A stretch of 64,000 nt of DNA from positions 18,715 through 82,714 of IMG/VR virus record IMGVR_UViG_3300007644_000002; one strand, 5' to 3'. Positions within the stretch are counted from its first letter, which is position 1. Each line of letters opens with the position of its first letter. The notes under the pieces are model-generated. The model had not been told where the DNA came from. It searched no databases and saw only the letters and a program-made list of their open reading frames with translations. This DNA is from a virus. A program made the translations under genes and the position numbers. Below, piece after piece: positions 1-61,986 of the stretch.

Positions 1-755
1 ATATGAGTCTCATTATAACCGTGATGGTCTTGAGTAACTAACAACCTCTTAGAGATGACTTGAGTGGTAGGTGTAAGAATACCTTTACCATTCTTGTCAA
101 GCATATTGAACGGTTCGCCAATGTCGCGACAAAAGGTCAAAGTATCACACCCATGCCATGGATGTATAGCAGTATCAGATAACCCCAGATAGTTTACTTC
201 AGGTAGTGCCAGATGAGACGTGGTGTACGTTCTAAACAATCTCTGTAGGGTACAGTACGGGCCGCAGTTGATTGGAAAATTATTATTAACAAGAGTATGA
301 TTCGCCCAATGAGCAAACCGTCTATCTAGGGAATACATCCCCATAAACAAACCTATGTTGGCGTAAAGCATACTGTCCGACGCCTTCGCGAGAGATTTAA
401 ACACCTCGTATCGCTCAGGAATCAGATAGGTATCATGTTCTATAACCCAAAACTTCTCACCGGACTCTGCTTGTTGTCTCATGAGTTCCCAATGAGAACA
501 CATTCCTGCCTTCTCTGTAGGAGAGTGATCGTCCTTCGCGTTACCAGAATGTAGGTCGACTCCCATGAGACTAGCCTTCCAGTTGTAACGGTCTACATGT
601 TCTTGAAACGTATCAGACTCAGGAGTGATAGCATCAAACACTTCTATACCATCAATAAACCCATCGTCAATAGCACATTGAAAAGACTTCCGAGAAATCT
701 CAGCATACTCTTCTGACCTTTCATTACCCTTGATTACTATCTGTCTTACTTTCAA
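1..755 (-). CDS. Glycosyltransferase-like protein, partial (3' end outside window)
   Basis: Open frame of 251 codons that leaves the window at its C-terminal side, so the product is incomplete. I chose a TTG start at 755-753: it is preceded by a good Shine-Dalgarno (AGGAG, 6 bases upstream) and overlaps the stop of the upstream gene in the sequence TTGA, indicating translational coupling. Residues about 83-111 contain a conserved-looking SHWELMRQ segment followed by FWVIEHDTYLIP, which resembles the acidic metal-binding segment of family 25-like (LPS-type) glycosyltransferases. That family assignment is inference from one motif. It forms a pair with the next glycosyltransferase and probably acts on sugars of the host surface, virion or DNA; the acceptor is unknown. 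Confidence 0.6.
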   Translation of the reverse strand, partial: MKVRQIVIKGNERSEEYAEISRKSFQCAIDDGFIDGIEVFDAITPESDTFQEHVDRYNWKASLMGVDLHSGNAKDDHSPTEKAGMCSHWELMRQQAESGEKFWVIEHDTYLIPERYEVFKSLAKASDSMLYANIGLFMGMYSLDRRFAHWANHTLVNNNFPINCGPYCTLQRLFRTYTTSHLALPEVNYLGLSDTAIHPWHGCDTLTFCRDIGEPFNMLDKNGKGILTPTTQVISKRLLVTQDHHGYNETH

Positions 756-1525
756 GAAATTCTCCTTTTGATAAACTCTTCCTGATTACCACTTCTTAAC
801 CTACAATGAACAAACTTAGTAGTTGGGGTTCTCATATCATTCCAGATTTCAGACACATTATTAAAAAGCTTCACGCTGTCTGTCCATATATGACCATTCC
901 AGTCCTGACTTAACAATTGTATGTCAGCATTATTCTTATGTAACATATACTGAAGATATGGTTGAGCGGTCAGAAAATATTCATCAGGCATTCTATTTTC
1001 AAAGTCATTTAACCTAGGTGCCTTATCAATCATCCACTCTACGTATTCAGGTAGGTCAAACCAGTTCCTCGCTTTCTCTCTGATTTGTTTTGAATACAAC
1101 ACGACTCCGCTGTTAAATGATACATCAACAACAGCAACTTCTTCCTTCCATTCTTTTAGTTTCTTTAGTTTAGTCGGAGGAATTCTATCATGGAAGGTTT
1201 CTTCGACGACTCCGACTTCACCCGTGAGTTCATCAAATATATTATCAGTCAGTCCCTCGATAGGAAGAACATCAACGTCCGCGTAAAGAATTTTGTCGTA
1301 TTGGTCAAACCGAGGGTCTAGTAAGGGTTTCAGTGAACCGAAGTACACGTCATTATTTTGGATACGATTACCAGTAGTGTATTGGTAATGTGTTTGTAAG
1401 AAATCGGTATTATGCTCGAACATGTATTCAACACCGACAGTCTTAGCATATTCTGTCATAAGATGAACGCCCGCTTCTACTTCAGGGGTGATATCACCAT
1501 CGAAATATTGATATATAAGATTCAT
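752..1525 (-). CDS. GT-A fold glycosyltransferase (family 8-like)
   Basis: A 257-residue protein with the hallmarks of a nucleotide-sugar-dependent GT-A glycosyltransferase. The segment YDKILYADVDVLP (about residues 76-88) carries the D-x-D metal/nucleotide-sugar motif at 83-86, and FNSGVVLYSK (about 137-146) matches the second conserved block of family 8-type enzymes. There is no signal peptide or membrane segment, so it should act in the cytoplasm. It is the first gene of a two-gene unit with the downstream glycosyltransferase, overlapping it by four bases, and lies just after a terminator. Donor and acceptor sugars cannot be read from the sequence. Confidence 0.75.
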   Translation of the reverse strand: MNLIYQYFDGDITPEVEAGVHLMTEYAKTVGVEYMFEHNTDFLQTHYQYTTGNRIQNNDVYFGSLKPLLDPRFDQYDKILYADVDVLPIEGLTDNIFDELTGEVGVVEETFHDRIPPTKLKKLKEWKEEVAVVDVSFNSGVVLYSKQIREKARNWFDLPEYVEWMIDKAPRLNDFENRMPDEYFLTAQPYLQYMLHKNNADIQLLSQDWNGHIWTDSVKLFNNVSEIWNDMRTPTTKFVHCRLRSGNQEEFIKRRIS

Positions 1526-4203: not shown

Positions 4204-5147
4204 TATGCTTTTATTTCCACGTTTGCCATGACCTCAGTGAGGCAGGCGACTAGGTTAAGTTCGTGATCTTGAACAAACGCATTCTTATATTGATAATCAC
4301 CAAGTATCAGCACTAATTGTGGAATACTATTGGGCACAACATAATCATACATTTTATCGTATATGCCGCGAAAGATTGCGGCGGGCTCTATATCTATATT
4401 ATTTACGACCCAAGAACGCATACTCTTAAAGTTTTTATCTCGAATAGCCTTGAATAACGCAGTATATGGGTCAGAGACTTGCTTAGCTGCTGTTAGCGGG
4501 ATGTTCAGAGTGCCAGAGATAGAACCACGCTGCATCTCATTGATGACCCTGCGCCAGTCAGGAGCGTGCCGCATGATGAGGTTTGCGATCACGTTATTAT
4601 CAAACTGAACGTTCTCTTCTTTGAGAATATGTTGGGCGCGAGACATGAATTGCCCACACAACTGAACCATAACTGTTTTGTTAAAATTGAACTGGTATTT
4701 GGAACATCTAGAGTGAAGAGGTTCGATAATACGGTTCTCGAAGTTACAAGTCATAATAAAACGACAGTTCTTAGAAAACTCTTCGATGAACCCACGGAGA
4801 GCAGGTTGGGTCGATTGGGGATTGAGGTAGTCCGCCTCATCTAGGATGACAACTTTGTAACCACCCTGTAAGGATACCGAGGAAGCAAACTGTTTAATCT
4901 TACCACGTAGGGTATCAATGTTACCTTCTTCCGACCCGTTCACAATGATGTAATCTACGTCCAGTTCTTCACAGATAGCACGTGCGACAGTAGTCTTACC
5001 AGTACCAGCGGTACCAGTGAACATCATATTAGGAATCTCGCCACCATCGACGATTTTCTGGAAGGTGGTCTTCAGTTCTGTAGGAAGGATTGTTTCTGAA
5101 ACTTTTGATGGGCGATACTTCTCAACCCAAAGGAATTCTTTGCTCAT
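4203..5147 (-). CDS. 44: Clamp loader ATPase gp44
   Basis: A 314-residue AAA+ ATPase, close to T4 gp44 (319). Visible are Walker A GTAGTGKTT (45-53), Walker B VILDEAD (100-106), the sensor-1 TCN (133-135) and the arginine-finger motif SRC (146-148). It hydrolyses ATP, as part of the gp44/gp62 complex, to load the gp45 clamp on primer-template junctions during DNA replication. An early-type promoter lies 44-72 bases upstream. Confidence 0.96.
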   Translation of the reverse strand: MSKEFLWVEKYRPSKVSETILPTELKTTFQKIVDGGEIPNMMFTGTAGTGKTTVARAICEELDVDYIIVNGSEEGNIDTLRGKIKQFASSVSLQGGYKVVILDEADYLNPQSTQPALRGFIEEFSKNCRFIMTCNFENRIIEPLHSRCSKYQFNFNKTVMVQLCGQFMSRAQHILKEENVQFDNNVIANLIMRHAPDWRRVINEMQRGSISGTLNIPLTAAKQVSDPYTALFKAIRDKNFKSMRSWVVNNIDIEPAAIFRGIYDKMYDYVVPNSIPQLVLILGDYQYKNAFVQDHELNLVACLTEVMANVEIKA

Positions 5148-5190
5148 GTGTTACTCCATAATAAAATAAATGTATCTTTCAACGAGAGCT

Positions 5191-5219
5191 ATTATACTAC
5201 AATAACTCTCTCATGTAAA
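5191..5219 (-). promoter_or_regulatory. Sigma-70-type early promoter for gene 44
   Basis: On the minus strand TTTACA, 17 bases, TATAAT, ending 44 bases upstream of the gene 44 ATG. The -35 has one mismatch to consensus. Confidence 0.7.
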
Positions 5220-5225
5220 TAGGTA

Positions 5226-6314
5226 TTAATCAAATAAGTTAAATAAATCTAAAGATTCCCACGGCCAGTAGGTGTAACCAAAATGTCCCCACCTCGCGGT
5301 CTCTTTTAAGTTTATGGAAAAGAGATCGAAACGGTCAATGATTCCTTTGGGTGTCAGGTCAACAGTATCCAGAACCAATTTTACGAGGTCTTCGCGCACT
5401 TGTCCGTCCGCATAGATGTATAAACTAGTGGGTTCTTTCACACCAATAGCATAACTCAACTGAACGGTACAGTTACTCACACCAAAAGAATGAACAATAT
5501 TCTTTGCGATGTAACGTGCCATATATGCGCCAGAACGGTCAACCTTGGTACAGTCTTTACCACTAAACGCACCACCACCATGTGGACAGTACCCACCATA
5601 GGTGTCTACAATAATCTTTCGACCAGTAACACCAGCATCACCATCAGGGCCGCCAATGATAAACTGACCTGTGGGATTAATAAGATATTCAGTTTGGTTA
5701 TCGACCCAATCACCGAGACATTTTTTGATAAGTTCTTTTATATTAGTTCGTACAATCTCTATATCTTGCTTTGCGGTATGTTGCGCACTACAAACGACTT
5801 TAGACACTCGAAGAGGTTTACCTGTTTCAGCATAATCGACAGAGACCTGAGACTTGATGTCGGGGCCATACTTTGAATACGCACTAACACTTTCTATTAT
5901 CTTTTTACTGAGACTAATTGCGAGAGGCATATAGGTATCGGTCTCTGTACACGCATAACCAAACATTAGTCCTTGGTCACCCGCACCGAAGTCATCAGTA
6001 CCTAGAGCGATGTCAGCAGATTGACCGTGTAGTTCATTGTAAACCTTTAAGTTTCTCCAATGGAAACCATCTTGTTCGTAACCAATTTCATACACAACGT
6101 CTCGAACAATCTGTTCAATACGTTTCTTGTCAAACTTATCGCTCTTATATTCTCCAGCAAGGACTACCATGTTAGTAGTTACAAGGGTTTCGACCGCAGC
6201 GCGATGGGAGGGGTTTTTATCTATCAGGTAGGTTGCTACAGCATCAGATATGATGTCAGCAATTTTATCGGGGTGGCCACTACTAACGCTTTCACTAGTA
6301 AAAGTGTAACTCAT
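5226..6314 (-). CDS. metK: S-adenosylmethionine synthetase
   Basis: A 362-residue methionine adenosyltransferase, slightly shorter than bacterial MetK (about 384). It makes SAM from methionine and ATP. Signature elements are GHPDKIAD (13-20; ATP/metal site), GAGDQGLMFGYA (methionine/ATP site), GGPDGDAGVTGRK and the flexible DTYGGYCPHGGGAFSGKD region, with PHGGGAFSGKD of the family intact, so activity is likely. Phage SAM synthesis could feed methyltransferases, including the nearby one at 6617-7264, or restore SAM pools. It stands alone between gene 44 and a tRNA gene. Such genes are rare in T4 itself but known as auxiliary metabolic genes in some environmental phages. Confidence 0.95.
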   Translation of the reverse strand: MSYTFTSESVSSGHPDKIADIISDAVATYLIDKNPSHRAAVETLVTTNMVVLAGEYKSDKFDKKRIEQIVRDVVYEIGYEQDGFHWRNLKVYNELHGQSADIALGTDDFGAGDQGLMFGYACTETDTYMPLAISLSKKIIESVSAYSKYGPDIKSQVSVDYAETGKPLRVSKVVCSAQHTAKQDIEIVRTNIKELIKKCLGDWVDNQTEYLINPTGQFIIGGPDGDAGVTGRKIIVDTYGGYCPHGGGAFSGKDCTKVDRSGAYMARYIAKNIVHSFGVSNCTVQLSYAIGVKEPTSLYIYADGQVREDLVKLVLDTVDLTPKGIIDRFDLFSINLKETARWGHFGYTYWPWESLDLFNLFD

Positions 6315-15681: not shown

Positions 15682-15710
15682 ATTATATCACACTTCGGTA
15701 ATATAGTCAA
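15682..15710 (-). promoter_or_regulatory. Sigma-70-type early promoter for uvsY
   Basis: Minus strand TTGACT, 17-base spacer, TATAAT, 33 bases before the uvsY ATG; the -35 overlaps the end of the upstream coding region. Confidence 0.75.
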
Positions 15711-16335
15711 TCATATCCTTCCAATAATCATAATCGTGTCCTAGGACGTAGGACAGTGTCATTCTGTAACAGTTTGTTTTTGCCGCATGGTACACTACAT
15801 CACCTGAACCGTACGCGCCAAAGTACCCTGCTTTCATGTTCCATCCCTTCTCATCCTGAATGGTAATCACTTCACCTGTTGTAGGTTCTACATACTTGAA
15901 CCATCCATCACCATCCTGAGACCATGTGAAAATTACGTTGAACATCGCTGCGTTGGCGTTATTGTGCCAGCATATAAATCCTTTAGGTGGATATAGTTGT
16001 GATAGGGCAGAAGAATATAATCCGAGTTCTTCCTTTAATCTCTTATCCAGAGCAATGTACGTTTTACGGTACTCTTCTGGATGAGTTCCTTGATAGTGGT
16101 CTGGTTTTATAGGGTGTGAGTAACCATGCTCGGCAGCACCATTGTGGTTCTCCCCCAGCGCTATAATTCGACGCATTTCCTTGTCTGAAGTATATTGGTC
16201 TGCCGCATTTTCTAAGCCAGGGCTCAATACCTCACAACATTCTTCTGGTCTGTACAAATCTCTATAGGTGTAACGAAAATCTTCAAGAATTGCCAATACA
16301 TTCGAATTCTTGATTTCGTACTTTTTCAAACTCAT
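15688..16335 (-). CDS. 2OG-oxygenase-like protein, paralogue A
   Basis: A 215-residue protein sharing a clear conserved block with the protein at 43413-44123: YPPKGFICWHNNANA (115-129), a KAGYFGAY segment, VVYHAAKT (181-188) and R191 before TLSYV. This is the order of a 2-oxoglutarate/iron dioxygenase (H...distal H...R), but the usual H-x-D reads W-H-N-N, so the metal-binding acidic residue is replaced by Asn. It may be an oxygenase with an altered site or a derived non-catalytic fold. Its start overlaps the end of the tail-tube-like gene by 4 bases (ATGA). Confidence 0.65.
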   Translation of the reverse strand: MSLKKYEIKNSNVLAILEDFRYTYRDLYRPEECCEVLSPGLENAADQYTSDKEMRRIIALGENHNGAAEHGYSHPIKPDHYQGTHPEEYRKTYIALDKRLKEELGLYSSALSQLYPPKGFICWHNNANAAMFNVIFTWSQDGDGWFKYVEPTTGEVITIQDEKGWNMKAGYFGAYGSGDVVYHAAKTNCYRMTLSYVLGHDYDYWKDMIDYITEV

Positions 16336-42972: not shown

Positions 42973-43329
42973 TTACCTTGTTACCGAAGGAGATACTTTA
43001 ATTTTCCCCTCTAAAATACGCTCTACTACGGGATATCCGTTCGCATCGATATAGGTTATTTCGACATCATACACGTACCTACCACGGGTAGATAGGGCAT
43101 CAGTCTGCTCATTTGTGAGGGATAATACTAGGATACCGTCGGATGACGGGTCAGCGACCATCGCAGAGAACTCGATAGTGTCTTCGTCTTTACTGTTGAA
43201 GTTCCGCTTCATTTTGGCGGATACAGTATAAGCACTTAAATCTTTCACAGAACCATCAGCTTCAGTAAGCTCTATCTGAAAAGCAATATCTGTGCCTTGG
43301 TCTATTGTAAAATCTTCGTAAGCTGCCAT
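42973..43329 (-). CDS. Small beta-rich virion protein
   Basis: A 118-residue protein beginning MAAYEDFTIDQGTDIAFQ and containing DLSAYTVSAKMKRNF and VYDVEITYIDANGYPVVERILEGKIKV. The pattern suits an immunoglobulin-like or BppU-N-terminal-like beta sandwich that connects fibres or baseplate parts. First gene of a late unit with its own promoter. Confidence 0.6.
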   Translation of the reverse strand: MAAYEDFTIDQGTDIAFQIELTEADGSVKDLSAYTVSAKMKRNFNSKDEDTIEFSAMVADPSSDGILVLSLTNEQTDALSTRGRYVYDVEITYIDANGYPVVERILEGKIKVSPSVTR

Positions 43330-43412: not shown

Positions 43413-44123
43413 TTATTCAGCAGACGCAATGTCTTCCAATACTAGATCACGTAGAGCATCTGAACCATCAGTAGTATCAAATACATAAGATACTGTACAA
43501 CGCCAGTCAGTATCGGCAGCAGCTGCGTGATAAAGAAGGGTTTCTGGTTCACGGTAGTGTCCGAAGTATGCGGCTTTACAAGTCCACACGCCGGGCTTGT
43601 CTTGGCAACGAACAACTTCCTTAGTTTCAGGATGAATGTAATCAAAGTAACCAGAACCATCTCCAGAATAAGAGAAGATTAGGTTGAAGCCCGGAGCGTT
43701 AGCATTATTGTGCCAAGAGATATATCCGCCTGGCGGGTATACTGCGCACAATGCGTTATGTTTAACTGATAAGAAGTTCATCATCCTATCATTCAACTCA
43801 CCTAGGTGTCTAGTGAGGTCTCTTTTAAAGATAGGGTCAGCATCACCCTCAAACATTGAGTGAGCCCGTTCGGATAACTTGAAGTTATATCCTACTAGTT
43901 GGTCAGGGAACCCTTCATGAGCAGTCTTCTGGTCAAGAATTTCGTTCATATATGGCGCGCCGACGTAGTAACTACGCTGGCGAATATGTTCTGCTCCATT
44001 CAAGTGGCAGTTCTTTTCAAAACCAGCCCAAGTATGAAGTTTAGCATATTCCCCAAGTATCTCCAGAAGTTCTGGATTATTAACGTCGATATGCTTTAGA
44101 TATTGGTCGTTTACCTGTGTCAT
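43413..44123 (-). CDS. 2OG-oxygenase-like protein, paralogue B
   Basis: A 236-residue paralogue of the protein at 15688. It shares YPPGGYISWHNNANA (129-143), CKAAYFGHY, LLYHAA (196-201) and R208 before TVSYV. As in paralogue A the iron-binding H-x-D is W-H-N-N. It lies last in a three-gene unit with a glycosyltransferase, under an early-type promoter, so it is probably made early and may modify a host or sugar substrate. Two forms in one genome argue for distinct roles. Confidence 0.65.
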   Translation of the reverse strand: MTQVNDQYLKHIDVNNPELLEILGEYAKLHTWAGFEKNCHLNGAEHIRQRSYYVGAPYMNEILDQKTAHEGFPDQLVGYNFKLSERAHSMFEGDADPIFKRDLTRHLGELNDRMMNFLSVKHNALCAVYPPGGYISWHNNANAPGFNLIFSYSGDGSGYFDYIHPETKEVVRCQDKPGVWTCKAAYFGHYREPETLLYHAAAADTDWRCTVSYVFDTTDGSDALRDLVLEDIASAE

Positions 44124-44848
44124 ACGATTGGTGTGTCCTTATTTAAACCAGCAGAGAAGTGACGTAAAATCACGGGCCCTGTCTCAGGTTTAGTTCTTGC
44201 CCAGTTGAAGGCATTGTAATAATTCCATCTCAAGTCGTCATCGAAGATACCAACTTTGAGATCCTTATATTTTTCTTCTTTCTCGGTCAACCACCAGAGG
44301 GAGAACTGATCCCAAGACTTTAGAGAATCAATATAACCTTCGGGCCACCAAGTATCATTCATTTGCTTGTATGTTAAATCCCACCAATCCTGCATAAATT
44401 CGCGGACGATTGGTTTAGTCATATCATACAAACATACCCCACCACAAAGAGTAAATTTAGCCATACCTTCTGGTGTGGAGAAATCACGTTCCGCATAAAT
44501 GTAGTCGCGATCATCAGTCAGTTCAGAGAATACCACATCGTAGTCTTTCATCTCATCCCATACCTTGATGATGTCTTCGTGCTCACATTCCATGTCAGCA
44601 TCAATATACATTGTTATGTCATATGGCGAACGTGCCATACCCCATAACTTAGCACGATAATGGTTGTCGCAGATAATAACATCATCGGCAACATCATAAC
44701 CACGTTCGTCAATATATTTTTCTTCTGTCACGAGACAGATTTTACAATCCTCATAGAAGTCTCTTAGACTTTCTGCGAGGTTAAGAGCATACAAATAAAA
44801 GTTAGGTTTATTTGATGCTACAATTACGAACCCTTTGGTCTTCTCCAT
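44120..44848 (-). CDS. Glycosyltransferase (GT-A, family 8-like)
   Basis: A 242-residue protein. N-terminal GFVIVASNKPNFYLYALNLAESL and the metal motif YIDADMEC (81-88; D83-x-D85) are standard for GT-A enzymes, and CGGVCLYDM is the second conserved loop. C-terminal VILRHFSAGLNK resembles the closing H motif of the family. Overlaps both neighbours (4 and 1 bases), so it is translated with the 149-residue protein and the 2OG paralogue. Confidence 0.8.
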   Translation of the reverse strand: MEKTKGFVIVASNKPNFYLYALNLAESLRDFYEDCKICLVTEEKYIDERGYDVADDVIICDNHYRAKLWGMARSPYDITMYIDADMECEHEDIIKVWDEMKDYDVVFSELTDDRDYIYAERDFSTPEGMAKFTLCGGVCLYDMTKPIVREFMQDWWDLTYKQMNDTWWPEGYIDSLKSWDQFSLWWLTEKEEKYKDLKVGIFDDDLRWNYYNAFNWARTKPETGPVILRHFSAGLNKDTPIV

Positions 44849-45297
44849 TACTCAGTCCCTTCCAGAGATTCCTGTAGAATGAGAATAGAGTACAAGTCTA
44901 CTTCGATACGAGACTTCGCACGACGTAACTTTCCTTTTAATTTGCGGTTCTTAGAGGCTTTAATCTCATCAACCTCAAATGCTTCTAATTTATAATTGAA
45001 GAGTTTCTCTAACTTACGCGCCTTCTGGTGTTCTAGTTCGCGCTGCTTTTCTTCTTCTTGCTCGGCATTTTTGCGTGTTACCCGATTAGTTGTTTCTTTA
45101 TCAATGTTATCTTCACCTACAGACCCGATGACTTCATCAAACAACTCATTTGGATTACCGTCTTTATCTACACGGTTCAGTAACATTACTTGCCTTGTTA
45201 CTCTTCCAACATCATCTTCCATTTCTAGGATACAGTTCAACTTATCTTTTGCGTCTGTTTCCCAAAAAGCATTGTCCATCCACTTTCTGTAACTCAT
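44848..45297 (-). CDS. Conserved-looking hypothetical protein, charged helical
   Basis: A 149-residue protein with a globular start (SYRKWMDNAFWETDAKDKLN) and a long charged helix (about 72-120, EEEKQRELEHQKARKLEKLF) then a basic RKLKGKLRRAKSRIEVD region, suggesting coiled coil and nucleic-acid or membrane contact. Function not recognised. It is the first gene after an early-type promoter that is followed by a hairpin. Confidence 0.6.
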   Translation of the reverse strand: MSYRKWMDNAFWETDAKDKLNCILEMEDDVGRVTRQVMLLNRVDKDGNPNELFDEVIGSVGEDNIDKETTNRVTRKNAEQEEEKQRELEHQKARKLEKLFNYKLEAFEVDEIKASKNRKLKGKLRRAKSRIEVDLYSILILQESLEGTE

Positions 45298-45422: not shown

Positions 45423-48400
45423 TTATGCGGTTCTTACATATAAAGTATATGCTTCAACTGTCGAGTAAGACGATTGAATTGTGGTACCAACATAATCACC
45501 AACAAATGCGCGAGAGTAATTACCAGCAAAGTCTCTTGAGTAATTACCAGTGAAGTCACGAGCATAGTCACCAGTGAAGTCGCCAGCATATGATGATGTA
45601 CGAACCCGAGTGTAATCAGCAGAGTATGCTGAAGTACGTAGTCGCGAGTAAGCAGACACTCGAACTCGGCTGAAAGTATCAGTTGAGTTACGAGTATATT
45701 CACCTAAGAATCCACGAGTGTAATTACCAATGAAGTTACCGGCGTAAGCAGAAACACGGTTACGGATATAGTTGCCCGCAAATGTTCTTGCGTAGTTACC
45801 AGTAAAGTCACCTACGAATTCAGTTGTGTACGCACCGGCATATTCGCCAGCAAATGTTCTTGCGTAGTTACCTGCGAAATCGCCTGCGAAATCACGAGTA
45901 TAGTTACCAGCGTAGTCTCGTGAGTAGTTACCCGCAAATGTTCTTGCGTAAGTACCAGCGTATTCACCCGCAAAATTGCGTGAGTAAACACCAGTGTATT
46001 GACCAGAGAATCCACGTGAGTAAGTACCAGTATATTCACCAACGAATCCACGTGAGTAAGTACCAGCGTATTCGCCTACAAAACCACGTGAGTAAGTACC
46101 AGTATATTCACCAACGAATCCACGAGAGTAAGTACCAGTGTACGACGATGGACGTGTACGGGAATAAGTCTCTACACGAGTTCTTGAGAAGTCACGAGCA
46201 TAGTTACCAACATAAGAAGTAGCATACGCACCAGTGTATTCACCCGCAAAATTACGTGAGTAAGTACCAGCATAAGCAGAAACACGAGTACGGGCATAAG
46301 CAGAAACACGAGTTCTCGCGAAATCACGACTATAGTTACCAGTATAAGAGGTAGCATATACGCCAGTATATTGTCCAGAGAAACCGCGTGAGTAAGTACC
46401 AGCATATTCGCCAGCGAAACCACGAGAGTAAACTCCAGTATATTGACCAGAGAAGTCACGTGCGTAGTTACCGACGTAGTTACCCACAAAGTCACCGACG
46501 TAATTACCGGCAAAGTTACCCGCGTAGTTACGAGCATATTCGCCAGCAAATGTTCTTGCGTAGTTACCCGCAAAGTCACCGGCAAAGTCAGTTATACGAT
46601 CACGAGTGTATGCGCTACCACGAGTACGGGCATAAGCAGAAACACGAGTACGGGCATAAGCAGAAACACGACTACGTGTAGATGTACGAGTATATTCACC
46701 AACGAAGTCACCAGCAAAGTCACCTGCGAAGGCACGAGCATAGTTACCAACGTAGTCGCCAGTGAAAGTAGTTGCGTAGTTACCAATATAGTTACCGGCA
46801 TAGTCACCCGCAAAGCCGCGAGCATAGTTGCCAACGAAGTCACCAGTGAAAGTAGTTGCGTAGTTACCGACGAAGTTTCCTGCGAAGTTAGTTACACGAT
46901 CACGAGCAAAGTCACCAACATAGTTAGTAACACGTGTACGAGCAAAGTCACCAACATAGTTAGTAACACGTGTACGAGCAAAGTCACCAACATAGTTGGT
47001 GATGCGTGTACGAGTAAAGTCACCCACGTAAGGAGTAACACGTGTACGAGAGTATGCTGATGGACGAGTACGTGTTGATGTACGTGTTGATGTACGAGCA
47101 TATTCACCAACGAAGTCACCAACGTAATTACCGACGAAGTCTCTTGCGTAGTTACCAACGAAGTCGCCAGCATAACCACGAGCATAGTCACCAATGTAGT
47201 CGCCAGCGTAGTATCCAACACGAGTATAATAGCCGGTAGCAGTAAAATCAGTCACGCGGTCACGTGTGTAATCTTCATTCGCAGCACGAGCACGTGTGTA
47301 ATCTAATGTTGCGGCACGAGCACGTGTGTAATCTAATGTTGCGGCACGATCACGTGTATATGTTTCTGTTGCGGCACGAGCACGTGTGTAATCAACGGTA
47401 CGCGTATAGTTACCGGTATACACTGGGGTACGAGTATAGTACTCTGCTGCAGATACGAGACGGGTACGAGTATAATCAACTGTTGCTGTTGATGTACGAG
47501 TATAAGAAGTAATGAAGTACCCTGTTACACGCGTGTAGTACACAGTCAGGGTGTAGAACTGCCAATATCCTTGATATCGCGCATAAGTTCCGGCAGTGCG
47601 TGAGTAAGCCGCCGTCGCCGCGCTTGAACGACTATAGTTACCAATATAAGATGTCGTACTAGTATAGTTACCCATATAAGATATCATGGTATTGTATGGG
47701 TTTGAATAACGGACATAGTCTCCGATAAATGAGGGAGCACGAGTGTATGTATCAACTCTAGTATAGTTACCAGTATATGTTACGGGACGACTATAGTTAC
47801 CAGTGTATGTTACGCCACGAGTATAGTTACCAGTGTATGTTACGCCACGAGTATAGTTACCAGTGTATGTTACAGGTCGGAGATAGTTACCGACAAAGTT
47901 TCCTGCGTAATACAATACACGAGTATAAGCTAGCGTACGAGTTGAAGTCTGAATTGCATTACGAGCGTAAGCTGAGTAACGAGTACGTGTAGAAGTACGT
48001 GCGTAAGCAGAACCACGGGTACGAGTATAATCAGTTATGCGAGTACGGGCATAATTACCTACGAAGTCACCAGCATAGTCGCCGACATAGTTTCGGGCAT
48101 AATCACCTACAAAGTCACCAGTAAAGGTAGTAGCATAATTACCTACGAAGTCACCAGTAAAGGTAGTCGCGTAGTTACCTACGAAGTCGCCAGTAAAGGT
48201 AGTCGCGTAGTTACCTACGAAGTCACCAGTAAAGGTAGTAGCATAATTACCTACAAAGTTACCCGCAAAGTTAGTTACACGATCACGAGCAAAGTCACCA
48301 ATATAGTTAGTGATGCGTGTTCTGGCGTAAGCTGAATAACGAGTTCGTGTTGAAGTTATGGTAGAATCGCGAGTAAAGTCACCAACATAGTTAGTGATGC

Positions 48401-50450
48401 GTGTTCTGGCGTAAGCTGAGTAACGAGTACGAGCAGATGTACGAGTAGATGTACGAGCATAGTTACCAACGAAGTCGCCAGCAAAAGCACGAGCATAGTC
48501 TCCGACAAAATTTCTAGCATAGTCTCCGACAAAATTTCTAGCATAGTTACCGACGAAGTTACCGGCAAAGTTAGTTACACGATTGCGAACATAAGCAGAT
48601 ACGCGAGCTCTTGAGTAAATACCAGCGAAATTAGTTACACGGTCACGAGTATAGTCAGTGATACGAGTTCTTGTGTAATCAGCAGAGTATGCTGAAGTAC
48701 GAGTTCTCGAATAAACACCAGAATAAGTTGAAACACGGTTACGAGCATATGTTCCAGCGTAAGCAGAAACACGATTACGTGAATAAGTACCTGAGAACGT
48801 TGAACCACGAGCACGAGTAAACTCTCCGGTGTAGTTTCCTACAAAACCGCGAGTATAGTTACCGGCAAAGTTACGAGCATATGTTCCGGCGTAAGCAGAA
48901 ACACGTGTACGACCATATGTTCCTGAGAACGATGAAGGACGTGTACGAGTAAACGCACCAGCATACTGGCCAGAGAATGAACGAGAATAGTTACCTACAA
49001 AGTCTCGAGCATATGTGCCTGAGTAAGTAGAAACACGTGTACGAGCATAAACACCAGAATAAGCAGAAGAACGTGTACGAGCATATGTGCCTGCGTAAGC
49101 AGAAACACGGTTACGCGAGTATGTTCCCGCATAAGAACTTACACGGTTACGCGAGTATGTTCCTGAATATGAGGAAACACGAGTACGAGCATATGTGCCT
49201 GCGTAAGTTGATACACGGCCGCGAGTATAGGATGACGGACGAGTACGTGTAAACACACCAGTGAAATTAGTAATACGGTTACGAGCGAATGTAGACACAC
49301 GTGCGCGGGCATAGTAACCAGTAAAGTTACCAACAAATCCCTGTAACCTAACACGAGTGTAGGTTGACTGACGGTTCAATACATATTCGCCAGTAAATGT
49401 ACGAGAGAAGTTAGTTATGCGGTCACGTGAATAAGTTGACTGACGGTCACGAGAGTAATTACCCGTGAAATCTCCAACATATTCTCCAGCGAAGTTGCGG
49501 CTATAGTTGCCAGCAAAGTCACGAGTATAATTGCCGACATAGTTGCCAGCGAAGTCTTGAGTACTAACGCGAGTAGAAACCCTACTAAATGTTGAGTTAC
49601 GGTCACGAGTATAAGAAGAAATACGAGCACGAGTATAAGCACTATTACGTGTTCTAGCATATGAAACTTCTGCGGTATTTCTTTTAGTGTTTAGTGCGGT
49701 ACCTACAGCCTTCCAAGTGCCTGGGGCAGTTGGTACACCTTGTGAAGATGAACGCAATTGATAAGAACCAATGTTGCCTGCGGTTGCGCGTAGTGTTTTA
49801 ATTCTCTGACCAAGAGTGAACTGGATTTGATCATCAGTCATTTCTCGGAAACCAGTGAAGTTACCGCTGACATCATATGATGTTGAAACTGGACGAACCG
49901 CAGCAATTGCGGTCATATTGTTTCTTATATAGATACTGTATTGAGTTTCGGTTCCATCTCCCCTTGTATCCTTGAATACGTTAGGAATAAACTGAATATA
50001 GTCTACGCCAGGCGAAGATGCTGCTAATCTGAAAGTACCTACGTAATCATTTTGAGCAAGATTACTTAGAACTCGATTAGCAAGATTATTCAAATCACCA
50101 TCTACCATTTCGTAGAAGCCGGGATTTGAGGTATCGTAGTATCCTACTGGACGGACAAAGTTCGCACCTACTTCATTCGCGGTTCCACCATTTTGATATA
50201 ACGTAGTAGTGGTAGAACCGGAAGTGATTTGAGAAGCAGGGTGCGTACCCGTTGCTTCATTGAAAAAAGTATCAATAAATGTACCAATACTCATATCACC
50301 GGTCAAAGTAATTTGACCCGTATCACTTGAAGGAGAAGATGCTAGTGCTTGTCCCACCGCATACGCAAGATAGTTCTCTTCCGTAGGAGTGAATTCCTGT
50401 AGGTCACCATTCGAATTTTTAATTTTTAATGGGATGCTCGATGCTGACAC
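45423..50450 (-). CDS. Giant Tyr/Arg/Gly tetrapeptide-repeat protein, probable tail fibre
   Basis: A 1675-residue protein from a GTG start (50450; purine-rich GAGAGCG upstream). Residues 1-about 258 are ordinary and fibre-like (SVALQ-type, containing KIKNSNGDLQEFTPTEENY, PVGYYDTSNPGFYEMVDG). From about 262 to about 1650 it is an almost unbroken tetrapeptide array: position 2 aromatic (Y/F) or R, position 4 G or R, e.g. NYAR, DFVG, TFAG, EYAG, TRVS. I see essentially no Lys, Cys or His in it. A central block (about residues 850-1060) has a different 10-residue beat (VTYTGNYTRG; AATLDYTRAR). The alternation suits beta strands with aromatic/Arg on one face. Late promoters lie upstream, and a tail-fibre-chaperone-like gene precedes it, so a virion fibre is most likely. 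Function unknown. Confidence 0.8.
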   Translation of the reverse strand: MSASSIPLKIKNSNGDLQEFTPTEENYLAYAVGQALASSPSSDTGQITLTGDMSIGTFIDTFFNEATGTHPASQITSGSTTTTLYQNGGTANEVGANFVRPVGYYDTSNPGFYEMVDGDLNNLANRVLSNLAQNDYVGTFRLAASSPGVDYIQFIPNVFKDTRGDGTETQYSIYIRNNMTAIAAVRPVSTSYDVSGNFTGFREMTDDQIQFTLGQRIKTLRATAGNIGSYQLRSSSQGVPTAPGTWKAVGTALNTKRNTAEVSYARTRNSAYTRARISSYTRDRNSTFSRVSTRVSTQDFAGNYVGNYTRDFAGNYSRNFAGEYVGDFTGNYSRDRQSTYSRDRITNFSRTFTGEYVLNRQSTYTRVRLQGFVGNFTGYYARARVSTFARNRITNFTGVFTRTRPSSYTRGRVSTYAGTYARTRVSSYSGTYSRNRVSSYAGTYSRNRVSAYAGTYARTRSSAYSGVYARTRVSTYSGTYARDFVGNYSRSFSGQYAGAFTRTRPSSFSGTYGRTRVSAYAGTYARNFAGNYTRGFVGNYTGEFTRARGSTFSGTYSRNRVSAYAGTYARNRVSTYSGVYSRTRTSAYSADYTRTRITDYTRDRVTNFAGIYSRARVSAYVRNRVTNFAGNFVGNYARNFVGDYARNFVGDYARAFAGDFVGNYARTSTRTSARTRYSAYARTRITNYVGDFTRDSTITSTRTRYSAYARTRITNYIGDFARDRVTNFAGNFVGNYATTFTGDFVGNYATTFTGDFVGNYATTFTGDFVGNYATTFTGDFVGDYARNYVGDYAGDFVGNYARTRITDYTRTRGSAYARTSTRTRYSAYARNAIQTSTRTLAYTRVLYYAGNFVGNYLRPVTYTGNYTRGVTYTGNYTRGVTYTGNYSRPVTYTGNYTRVDTYTRAPSFIGDYVRYSNPYNTMISYMGNYTSTTSYIGNYSRSSAATAAYSRTAGTYARYQGYWQFYTLTVYYTRVTGYFITSYTRTSTATVDYTRTRLVSAAEYYTRTPVYTGNYTRTVDYTRARAATETYTRDRAATLDYTRARAATLDYTRARAANEDYTRDRVTDFTATGYYTRVGYYAGDYIGDYARGYAGDFVGNYARDFVGNYVGDFVGEYARTSTRTSTRTRPSAYSRTRVTPYVGDFTRTRITNYVGDFARTRVTNYVGDFARTRVTNYVGDFARDRVTNFAGNFVGNYATTFTGDFVGNYARGFAGDYAGNYIGNYATTFTGDYVGNYARAFAGDFAGDFVGEYTRTSTRSRVSAYARTRVSAYARTRGSAYTRDRITDFAGDFAGNYARTFAGEYARNYAGNFAGNYVGDFVGNYVGNYARDFSGQYTGVYSRGFAGEYAGTYSRGFSGQYTGVYATSYTGNYSRDFARTRVSAYARTRVSAYAGTYSRNFAGEYTGAYATSYVGNYARDFSRTRVETYSRTRPSSYTGTYSRGFVGEYTGTYSRGFVGEYAGTYSRGFVGEYTGTYSRGFSGQYTGVYSRNFAGEYAGTYARTFAGNYSRDYAGNYTRDFAGDFAGNYARTFAGEYAGAYTTEFVGDFTGNYARTFAGNYIRNRVSAYAGNFIGNYTRGFLGEYTRNSTDTFSRVRVSAYSRLRTSAYSADYTRVRTSSYAGDFTGDYARDFTGNYSRDFAGNYSRAFVGDYVGTTIQSSYSTVEAYTLYVRTA
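46903..47046 (-). repeat. Four 36-bp tandem units in the repeat-protein gene
   Basis: Units start at 46903, 46939, 46975 and 47011; the first two are nearly identical, the last more diverged. Each encodes 12 residues (RVTNYVGDFART type). Confidence 0.85.
47281..47400 (-). repeat. Four 30-bp tandem units in the repeat-protein gene
   Basis: Units start at 47281, 47311, 47341 and 47371 and encode a 10-residue beat (AATLDYTRAR type), breaking the 12-residue rhythm of the flanks. Confidence 0.8.
47761..47880 (-). repeat. Four 30-bp tandem units in the repeat-protein gene
   Basis: Units start at 47761, 47791, 47821 and 47851 and encode VTYTGNYTRG; the second and third are almost identical. Confidence 0.85.
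48105..48248 (-). repeat. Four 36-bp tandem units in the repeat-protein gene
   Basis: Units at 48105, 48141, 48177 and 48213 encode TFTGDFVGNYAT; the copies differ at only a few bases, consistent with recent slippage or recombination. Confidence 0.88.
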
Positions 50451-50623: not shown

Positions 50624-51121
50624 TTAAACTTCTTGAGGCCAAACAACTTTATCTACGGAGTCTACTACGGTTAGGTCTACTGTATCAGTGATATCTCTTA
50701 ACGCTTGACGGTAATCAATGTATTGTTGTCGTTTTTCAGCTGAAAGTGGAGCATCAGGTAGCATAGCCCAATCAGTATGGAAAAGTTTCATATCTCTTTG
50801 AGCGCGAATCTCGCCCTTGATAACTTCTTTGTCCCATGTCCACTTCGCGGGTGTTACACTTCTATCCCAGAATGAATGATAATTAGGTCGACGGTCAACA
50901 GTCAACCATTCGTCCAATTCGTCATCCCATACATGAGTGTTTACAAATTCTTCTAATGCTACACTACCGGCACATTCATAGATACGGTGAATTATATGAC
51001 CATTACGGTCAGTAACACCATCTTCGGGATAAATGCCATTATCTAAATCCGTTCTTTTAATCACTCCATTTTCATCGTGAAGTGCTACTATAGGGCTAAC
51101 CCCTCTTTCATTGTCGCTCAT
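50624..51121 (-). CDS. Tail protein with tail-fibre chaperone-like C-terminus
   Basis: A 165-residue protein. The C-terminal third (about 110-165) has the R-D-x-x-L-x-x-T-D-W-x-x-LPD-x-PL pattern (RDMKLFHTDWAMLPDAPLSAE then YRQALRDI and VVWPQ), as in phage tail assembly chaperone/fibre assembly proteins. The N-terminal part (GIYPEDGVTDRNGHIIHRIYE) is specific. It is encoded just before the giant repeat protein and may assist or bind it. Confidence 0.7.
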   Translation of the reverse strand: MSDNERGVSPIVALHDENGVIKRTDLDNGIYPEDGVTDRNGHIIHRIYECAGSVALEEFVNTHVWDDELDEWLTVDRRPNYHSFWDRSVTPAKWTWDKEVIKGEIRAQRDMKLFHTDWAMLPDAPLSAEKRQQYIDYRQALRDITDTVDLTVVDSVDKVVWPQEV

Positions 51122-61104: not shown

Positions 61105-61986
61105 TTAGCCAGTGGTTCCCAAGAATTTGTTCAACCAGTGCTGTTTCTGTACATGATTCATTAATAAGTCCTGATATATGATGGGAAGTTCGTACGGACT
61201 ACTCCTCCACCTAGGGACATACTTGAGTGCTTCAGCTCGTAGAGGTTCTAAGTATTCATCGTAACTGTGGACTTTCTGAGCACTACCTTCGGTTGTTCTA
61301 TCAATACAATACATGTCACTAGACATAGTTAGGAAGTAACAAAGATTTCCTTTTTGATGCTCACCTAGTAGTTTGTATGTGTATGCGTGGTCTTCTCCAT
61401 TACCTATATCTTCGCTGAGTCTCTGCTTAGCGGACTTGCGACTTTGTAGTATAATGAAGTCCACCGAGACCGGTCTGTCTTCTGTGAACAAGTGACTGAC
61501 ACGTGGGCCCAGTTCCGCATTAGGGGTACACATAGAAGTTCCCCATACGCTTGCGTGATACTTTTCATTGACCCACCAATAATGTCCAGACTGTAATTCC
61601 CAATCACATATACAGTCACATGGTACCACACCAAGAACATCAATATAAATATAATGGTTTACATGATTCCATAACGACTGTAAATAAGAAGGATATAGAA
61701 AATCATCCCCATCAATCTGAGAAACATACTCGCAATCACTTTCTAAGAACACGTCGAGACATGCGTTCTTACCTTTGCCAGGCTTTCCATTACTCTCTGT
61801 GTTTACTACACGAAACGGTTGATCTATTTGTAGAACTTGTTCATAATAACCTTCACGATTACTATTCACTACTATCACAACTTCCCATTCTACTGGAGTT
61901 ATTTTAATAACTTGTTGTACTGAACGTATCAGTCTCTCTAACTTTGGAATATCATTAGAGGTCAACAAAGTGGTCATTAATTTCAT
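61105..61986 (-). CDS. Glycosyltransferase (family 2-like)
   Basis: A 293-residue GT2-like enzyme: an N-terminal strand VVIVVNSNREG, KGKNACLDVF and metal motif DGDDFL (92-97). The C-terminal part (about 150-290) is specific and contains NGEDHAYTYKLL, an ED pair in the style of the GT2 catalytic base. Paralogue of the gene at 52185. Overlaps the oxygenase gene by one base, so the two are co-expressed. Confidence 0.8.
   Translation of the reverse strand: MKLMTTLLTSNDIPKLERLIRSVQQVIKITPVEWEVVIVVNSNREGYYEQVLQIDQPFRVVNTESNGKPGKGKNACLDVFLESDCEYVSQIDGDDFLYPSYLQSLWNHVNHYIYIDVLGVVPCDCICDWELQSGHYWWVNEKYHASVWGTSMCTPNAELGPRVSHLFTEDRPVSVDFIILQSRKSAKQRLSEDIGNGEDHAYTYKLLGEHQKGNLCYFLTMSSDMYCIDRTTEGSAQKVHSYDEYLEPLRAEALKYVPRWRSSPYELPIIYQDLLMNHVQKQHWLNKFLGTTG

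Follow-up and report, generated by a model that had tools for sequence, protein, structure and literature searches.

Collagen-like phage fibers that occur with a prolyl hydroxylase combine a periodic fiber with a 2OG hydroxylase, and the marine mussel foot proteins are built of hydroxylated repeats rich in Tyr, Arg, Gly and Asn. The tetrapeptide repeats of the CryoSeek II glycofibrils reportedly use dihydroxyproline. By the title of the work (Wang et al. PNAS 2025, e2423943122), as cited in PMC12967142 and PMC12689565, the linear tetrapeptide repeats of these fibrils are coated by glycans. For the 2OG-Fe(II) oxygenases of cyanophages, roles in nitrogen metabolism or DNA repair have been proposed (PMC3037559), and what these enzymes do in viruses had, according to PMC9602691, not been the subject of specific study. 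Here we describe a phage locus in which a giant tetrapeptide-repeat protein is encoded beside a putative glycosyltransferase and a predicted 2OG-Fe(II) oxygenase.

The window, as we call the whole 64,000-nucleotide stretch that was analyzed, lies within an 82.7-kb virus record carrying T4-like genes (major capsid gp23, sheath, terminase, baseplate wedge and tail tube). An earlier note on this DNA had claimed a giant protein obeying a 4-residue rule, with an aromatic residue or Arg at position 2, Gly or Arg at position 4 and small or polar residues at positions 1 and 3, and our analysis bears this out; in that frame, aromatic/Arg, small, Gly/Arg/Ser/Thr and Asn/Thr/Asp residues follow in turn. 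The ORF lies exactly at 45423..50450 (minus strand) and encodes 1675 amino acids from a GTG start; its relatives use the equivalent start position, in some cases with ATG (MSASSI). Residues 1-262 have an ordinary composition, and residues from about 263 to 1650 (45501..49664, minus strand) form an array of ~1390 residues with the pattern [YFRS]-[small]-[GRST]-[N/T/D/A]. Under a four-state phase model of residues 263-1650, the array fits [YFRS]-x-[GRST]-x in 302 of 341 tetrads, with a log-likelihood of -2454 compared to -4406 ± 34 when the residues are shuffled at constant composition, a gap of ~58 standard deviations. The model finds six phase shifts in total, each of which falls within an irregular insert at residues 915-1059 (47274..47708, minus strand). 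The protein closes with a conserved C-terminal tail (45423..45500, minus strand, including the stop codon) that reads AYTLYVRTA, and very divergent relatives end alike (TYTLYVRTA- or TYTLYVR-like).

The array is rich in Tyr, Arg, Gly and Asn. Lys, Cys and His, whose near-absence had also been remarked upon, are each missing altogether from its 1388 residues, and Pro occurs only 10 times. The locus thus resembles the collagen-like phage fibers in pairing a periodic protein with a predicted 2OG hydroxylase, but those fibers repeat Gly-X-Y, whereas the period here is four and Pro is almost lacking. In line with the earlier note, which knew of no described fold or role for such a protein, the array gave no significant match by sequence to Pfam, PHROGs or the PDB, and a text search of the literature returned no match to the repeat motif; a weak match of the protein to an Enterococcus phage covers 12%. 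Because the array repeats every 12 bases, long spurious ORFs also run across it in other reading frames and on the complementary strand (for example, 46443-47060, plus strand), and these may mislead gene callers.

Comparison of the array with its relatives indicates that the repeats are old and maintained. The codon identity of like residues at lags of 4 to 240 residues is mostly ~0.5, as codon usage predicts, and exceeds this level slightly in the window's own array at lags 12, 24 and 44; since this identity is mostly at the random level, the repeat copies are mostly old. Between near-identical relatives, in pairs with enough changes to measure, the dN/dS of the array is ~0.13-0.17. Constraint differs by tetrad position: position 2 (G/R/S/T) changed at 0.2% of sites, compared with synonymous changes in 9% of its codons; at position 0, Y<->F is the only exchange seen between near relatives; and positions 1 and 3 show swaps among small residues or between D and N. 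The array is therefore under strong purifying selection. Recent slippage as its origin is rejected in the main by codon randomization together with this selection, and low-complexity noise is rejected by the largely randomized codons between repeats and the dN/dS of 0.13-0.17.

The N-terminal domain (residues 1-262; 49665..50450, minus strand) is found in the array proteins of every clade that was examined. The earlier note had seen an ordinary region of about 260 residues here, in agreement with a conserved domain that AlphaFold2 predicts to be folded, with a mixed alpha/beta structure and a pLDDT of about 90. Fold searches of the PDB and BFVD with this domain gave nothing significant, and no PHROG, Pfam or PDB fiber family was matched. 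In several relatives (L103, L107, L118, L136 and others), two tandem array-fiber genes, each with its own N-terminal domain, are followed by one enzyme pair.

The gene lies in a tail-fiber module, with tail fiber and baseplate genes around it. Directly upstream is a tail fiber assembly chaperone (50624..51121, minus strand; Phage_tail_APC, PF16778, E = 6e-15), so the tail-fiber-chaperone-like gene noted earlier at this position is indeed one by profile. Downstream of the array, the order is a 149-aa gene, a 242-aa gene, a 236-aa gene and, directly after this cassette, an L-shaped tail fiber assembly-like gene (42973..43329, minus strand; phrog_3304, E = 3.6e-14). Like the long or side tail fibers of T4-like phages, the array protein combines this gene location with an upstream chaperone and an anchor-like N-terminal domain; it differs from them in its tetrads, its dedicated enzyme pair and its lack of a fiber family match. 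The earlier reading of the protein as a fiber thus gains from the tail-fiber module of a T4-like phage, the chaperone and the folded N-terminal domain, while its beta-solenoid part, discussed below, is not supported. Among annotated phage records, the cassette was found only in Phage C48C1 (Kyanoviridae, OQ984149), which has the same gene order and in which a 3347-aa array protein and the three cassette genes are all annotated as hypothetical.

Two features of the surrounding sequence were also recorded. Right after the fiber stop codon, at 45419-45354 (minus strand), there is a perfect sigma-70 consensus (TTGACA-17-TATAAT) with an 11-pair terminator hairpin immediately after it; the close relative L013 shares this arrangement and most relatives lack it, although many of these retain a -10-like box and the hairpin. 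L143 and L322 (Phage C48C1) carry seven tRNAs, six of which (Thr, Asn, Asp, Tyr, Ser and Ala) decode residues abundant in the array and the seventh of which is for Leu; the window carries tRNA-Thr only.

The genes downstream of the array are the strongest clue to its function, and the earlier note had overlooked the two modifying-enzyme genes among them. The 149-aa accessory gene (44848..45297, minus strand) has a conserved N-A-F-W-E-like motif at its N terminus and lies between the array and the transferase in the relatives inspected. The 242-aa protein that follows (44120..44848, minus strand) is read, from the order of its motifs, as a putative GT-A glycosyltransferase. Its D-x-D motif is DAD or DVD in 88 of 90 distinct ORFs. 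D83 and D85 are invariant. Of 29 members, 13 match Pfam GT2 at scores below the cut-off (best, 1.4e-3). A profile search against the PDB gave no match to a glycosyltransferase, and an hhalign comparison with the other GT2 gene family of the same genome was negative. When the record was searched for GT8 family members, the match was to a gene other than the cassette transferase; glycosyltransferase-like genes elsewhere in the window include a weak GT8 fragment at 752-1525 (minus strand) and a GT2 gene at 61105-61986 (minus strand; E = 3e-9).

The 236-aa protein (43413..44123, minus strand), whose gene overlaps that of the transferase by 4 bases, is predicted to have the double-stranded beta-helix fold of a 2OG-Fe(II) oxygenase. 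Its AlphaFold2 model (pLDDT 91.9) retrieved a prolyl-4-hydroxylase (4j25), AlkB and PHD2 from the PDB in a Foldseek search (E = 4.7e-6 to 2e-4), the best match being the prolyl-4-hydroxylase (E = 4.7e-6, probability 1.00), at moderate TM scores of 0.3-0.5. By sequence, it matched no Pfam, NCBIfam or PDB family. The residues of its motif (H138-x-N140, H199 and R208) are invariant in a 29-member alignment, and H-x-N stands in place of H-x-D/E in all 98 motif-bearing sequences among 102 distinct oxygenase domains. Because Asn replaces the metal-binding Asp/Glu, the chemistry of this oxygenase is uncertain and may differ or be absent. It shares with the cyanophage 2OG-Fe(II) oxygenases (PMC3037559, PMC9602691) the predicted fold, a phage-borne gene and the presence of several copies per genome, and differs from them in having no Pfam or NCBIfam match, an H-x-N motif and a link to a fiber. 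Two more copies of the H-x-N family are present in the genome, at 15688-16335 (minus strand) in the window, the one copy in which the motif itself was read, and at 4858-5526 of G000, outside the window. The former adjoins the tail tube gene, which suggests that another virion protein may be modified.

The enzymes are linked to the array almost without exception. Searches of IMG/VR returned 79 loci for the oxygenase and 62 for the transferase. With transferases clustered at 90% identity, and counting for the array those clusters that had 1.5 kb or more of upstream sequence, an array ORF was detected less than 3 kb upstream in 43 of 45. Arrays were present on inspection in the remaining two, L080 and L166; in L166, the array lies ~4 kb upstream of the transferase with other genes between. 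The oxygenase was adjacent to the transferase in 46 of 46 clusters. In the reverse direction, both enzymes were found at 99 of 99 array or N-terminal-domain loci in IMG/VR with enough downstream sequence, a set that partially overlaps the forward set and is not phylogenetically independent. The order of array, 150-aa gene, transferase and oxygenase is kept at nearly all loci, down to ~33% oxygenase identity. Among 84,980 species genomes of bacteria and archaea, a pattern scan yielded no relative of the oxygenase, and the one match to the transferase (L352, JAAXIF010000028.1) sits within the same cassette. This contig is binned as Sphingobacteriales, possibly a hint at a host; as the cassette there sits beside phage-like genes, we read it as a phage contig that was probably misbinned.

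We take this near-invariant linkage in both directions as strong evidence and infer from it that the array is the substrate of both cassette enzymes. Our main reading, to which we give a probability of roughly 55%, is that the array protein is a long virion fiber whose array is hydroxylated and glycosylated by the putative enzymes encoded downstream. In such a model, the conserved N-terminal domain would anchor a very long fiber to the virion of a marine T4-like phage, the adjacent chaperone would probably help the fiber to fold, and the ~340 tetrapeptides would form an extended scaffold that is modified during infection. The oxygenase would hydroxylate array residues, and the DxD glycosyltransferase would add sugar to the array, either on the hydroxyl made by the oxygenase or on Tyr, Thr or Ser. 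N-linked sequons were rejected as modification sites, as N-x-S/T is not enriched: S/T occurs two residues after Asn in 35% of cases, compared with 44-45% after Thr or other residues. The product would be a glycan-coated linear fiber, up to ~0.45 μm long if fully extended, that may serve long-range host contact or shielding. The transferase chemistry, the extended glycan-coated form and the adhesive role are the parts of this model that we infer.

The nearest parallel would be the CryoSeek II glycofibrils. Both have a linear tetrapeptide scaffold, with 302 of 341 tetrads in phase in the phage array, and an aquatic source, and a hydroxylase and a glycosyltransferase would be the expected makers of such glycofibrils. 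The two differ in that each CryoSeek II tetrad is said to hold a dihydroxyproline, compared with the 10 prolines of the phage array; because this reported proline feature is not found here, we do not file the array as a CryoSeek II glycofibril, and propose only that it may work like one. The enzyme linkage suggests a chemically decorated virion fiber of a kind absent from the libraries searched. Whether it amounts to a new class, a putative viral glycofibril consisting of a hydroxylated and glycosylated tetrapeptide fiber with a dedicated H-x-N oxygenase and glycosyltransferase that have the array as sole substrate, is a more tentative proposition, to which we would give slightly less than even odds.

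A beta-solenoid had been proposed for the array in the earlier note. In its strongest form, the array would fold by itself, or trimerize, into a beta-solenoid or triple beta-helix of 12 residues per turn and act as an unmodified fibrous adhesin, with the enzymes acting elsewhere. A three-tetrad (12-residue) super-period is indeed strong in C48C1 and L066, extending to lags of ~100 and 240 residues with randomized codons, and the window array itself peaks at lag 12; the different constraint on alternating tetrad positions would also fit a coil. However, the period is less strict in the window clade, where lags 8, 12, 24 and 44 compete, and L041 and L113 show it weakly, such that the implied coil length varies between clades. 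AlphaFold2, given 35 homologues, assigned a pLDDT of only 22-39 to residues 261-500, which include 239 array residues, and the solenoid is unsupported on this account. The low pLDDT could also stem from a trimer or a poor alignment; as modeled, no fold is predicted for an unmodified monomer of the array. As self-folding also leaves the near-invariant enzyme linkage unexplained, we consider it unlikely.

Could the enzymes instead modify another target, such as another fiber or host surface glycans, and merely be carried in the same module? The oxygenase paralogs elsewhere in the genome, including the one beside the tail tube gene, and the nitrogen metabolism or DNA repair roles proposed for cyanophage 2OG oxygenases (PMC3037559) lend this idea some weight, but in either direction the linkage has practically no exceptions, even across deep divergence, and the scan of bacterial and archaeal genomes placed the sole transferase relative within a phage cassette and found none for the oxygenase. 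Such a separate target is, in our estimation, quite improbable.

It is more doubtful still that the oxygenase hydroxylates array Tyr or Arg, to DOPA or hydroxyarginine, so as to yield a wet-adhesive fiber like that of mussel feet, with the sugar being secondary. The phage array shares with the mussel foot proteins its Tyr/Arg/Gly/Asn-rich repeats and a marine setting, and it lacks Lys; in most array families, the residues retained best are Tyr/Phe, Gly and Thr. There is no homology between the two, though, and the phage cassette contains a putative glycosyltransferase. The usual targets of 2OG oxygenases with this fold are aliphatic carbons, the Y<->F exchange at position 0 is tolerated, and some array families contain only about 3-5% Arg, all of which count against modification at these residues. 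Finally, the RNA/DNA or polyanion binding once thought conceivable from the Arg content, which the net positive charge of the window array (R 180 vs D+E 86) would allow, is very hard to credit because the net charge of homologous arrays ranges from -14% to +13%.

The near-invariant link to a fiber gives one oxygenase family a concrete, testable substrate. Should the proposal of a hydroxylated and glycosylated fiber prove true, a substrate would have been identified for the first time for a 2OG oxygenase of a phage. A modified array would represent a virus-made, enzymatically decorated tetrapeptide fiber, and such decorated phage fibers could explain some of the unassigned filaments seen in cryo-EM of natural water.
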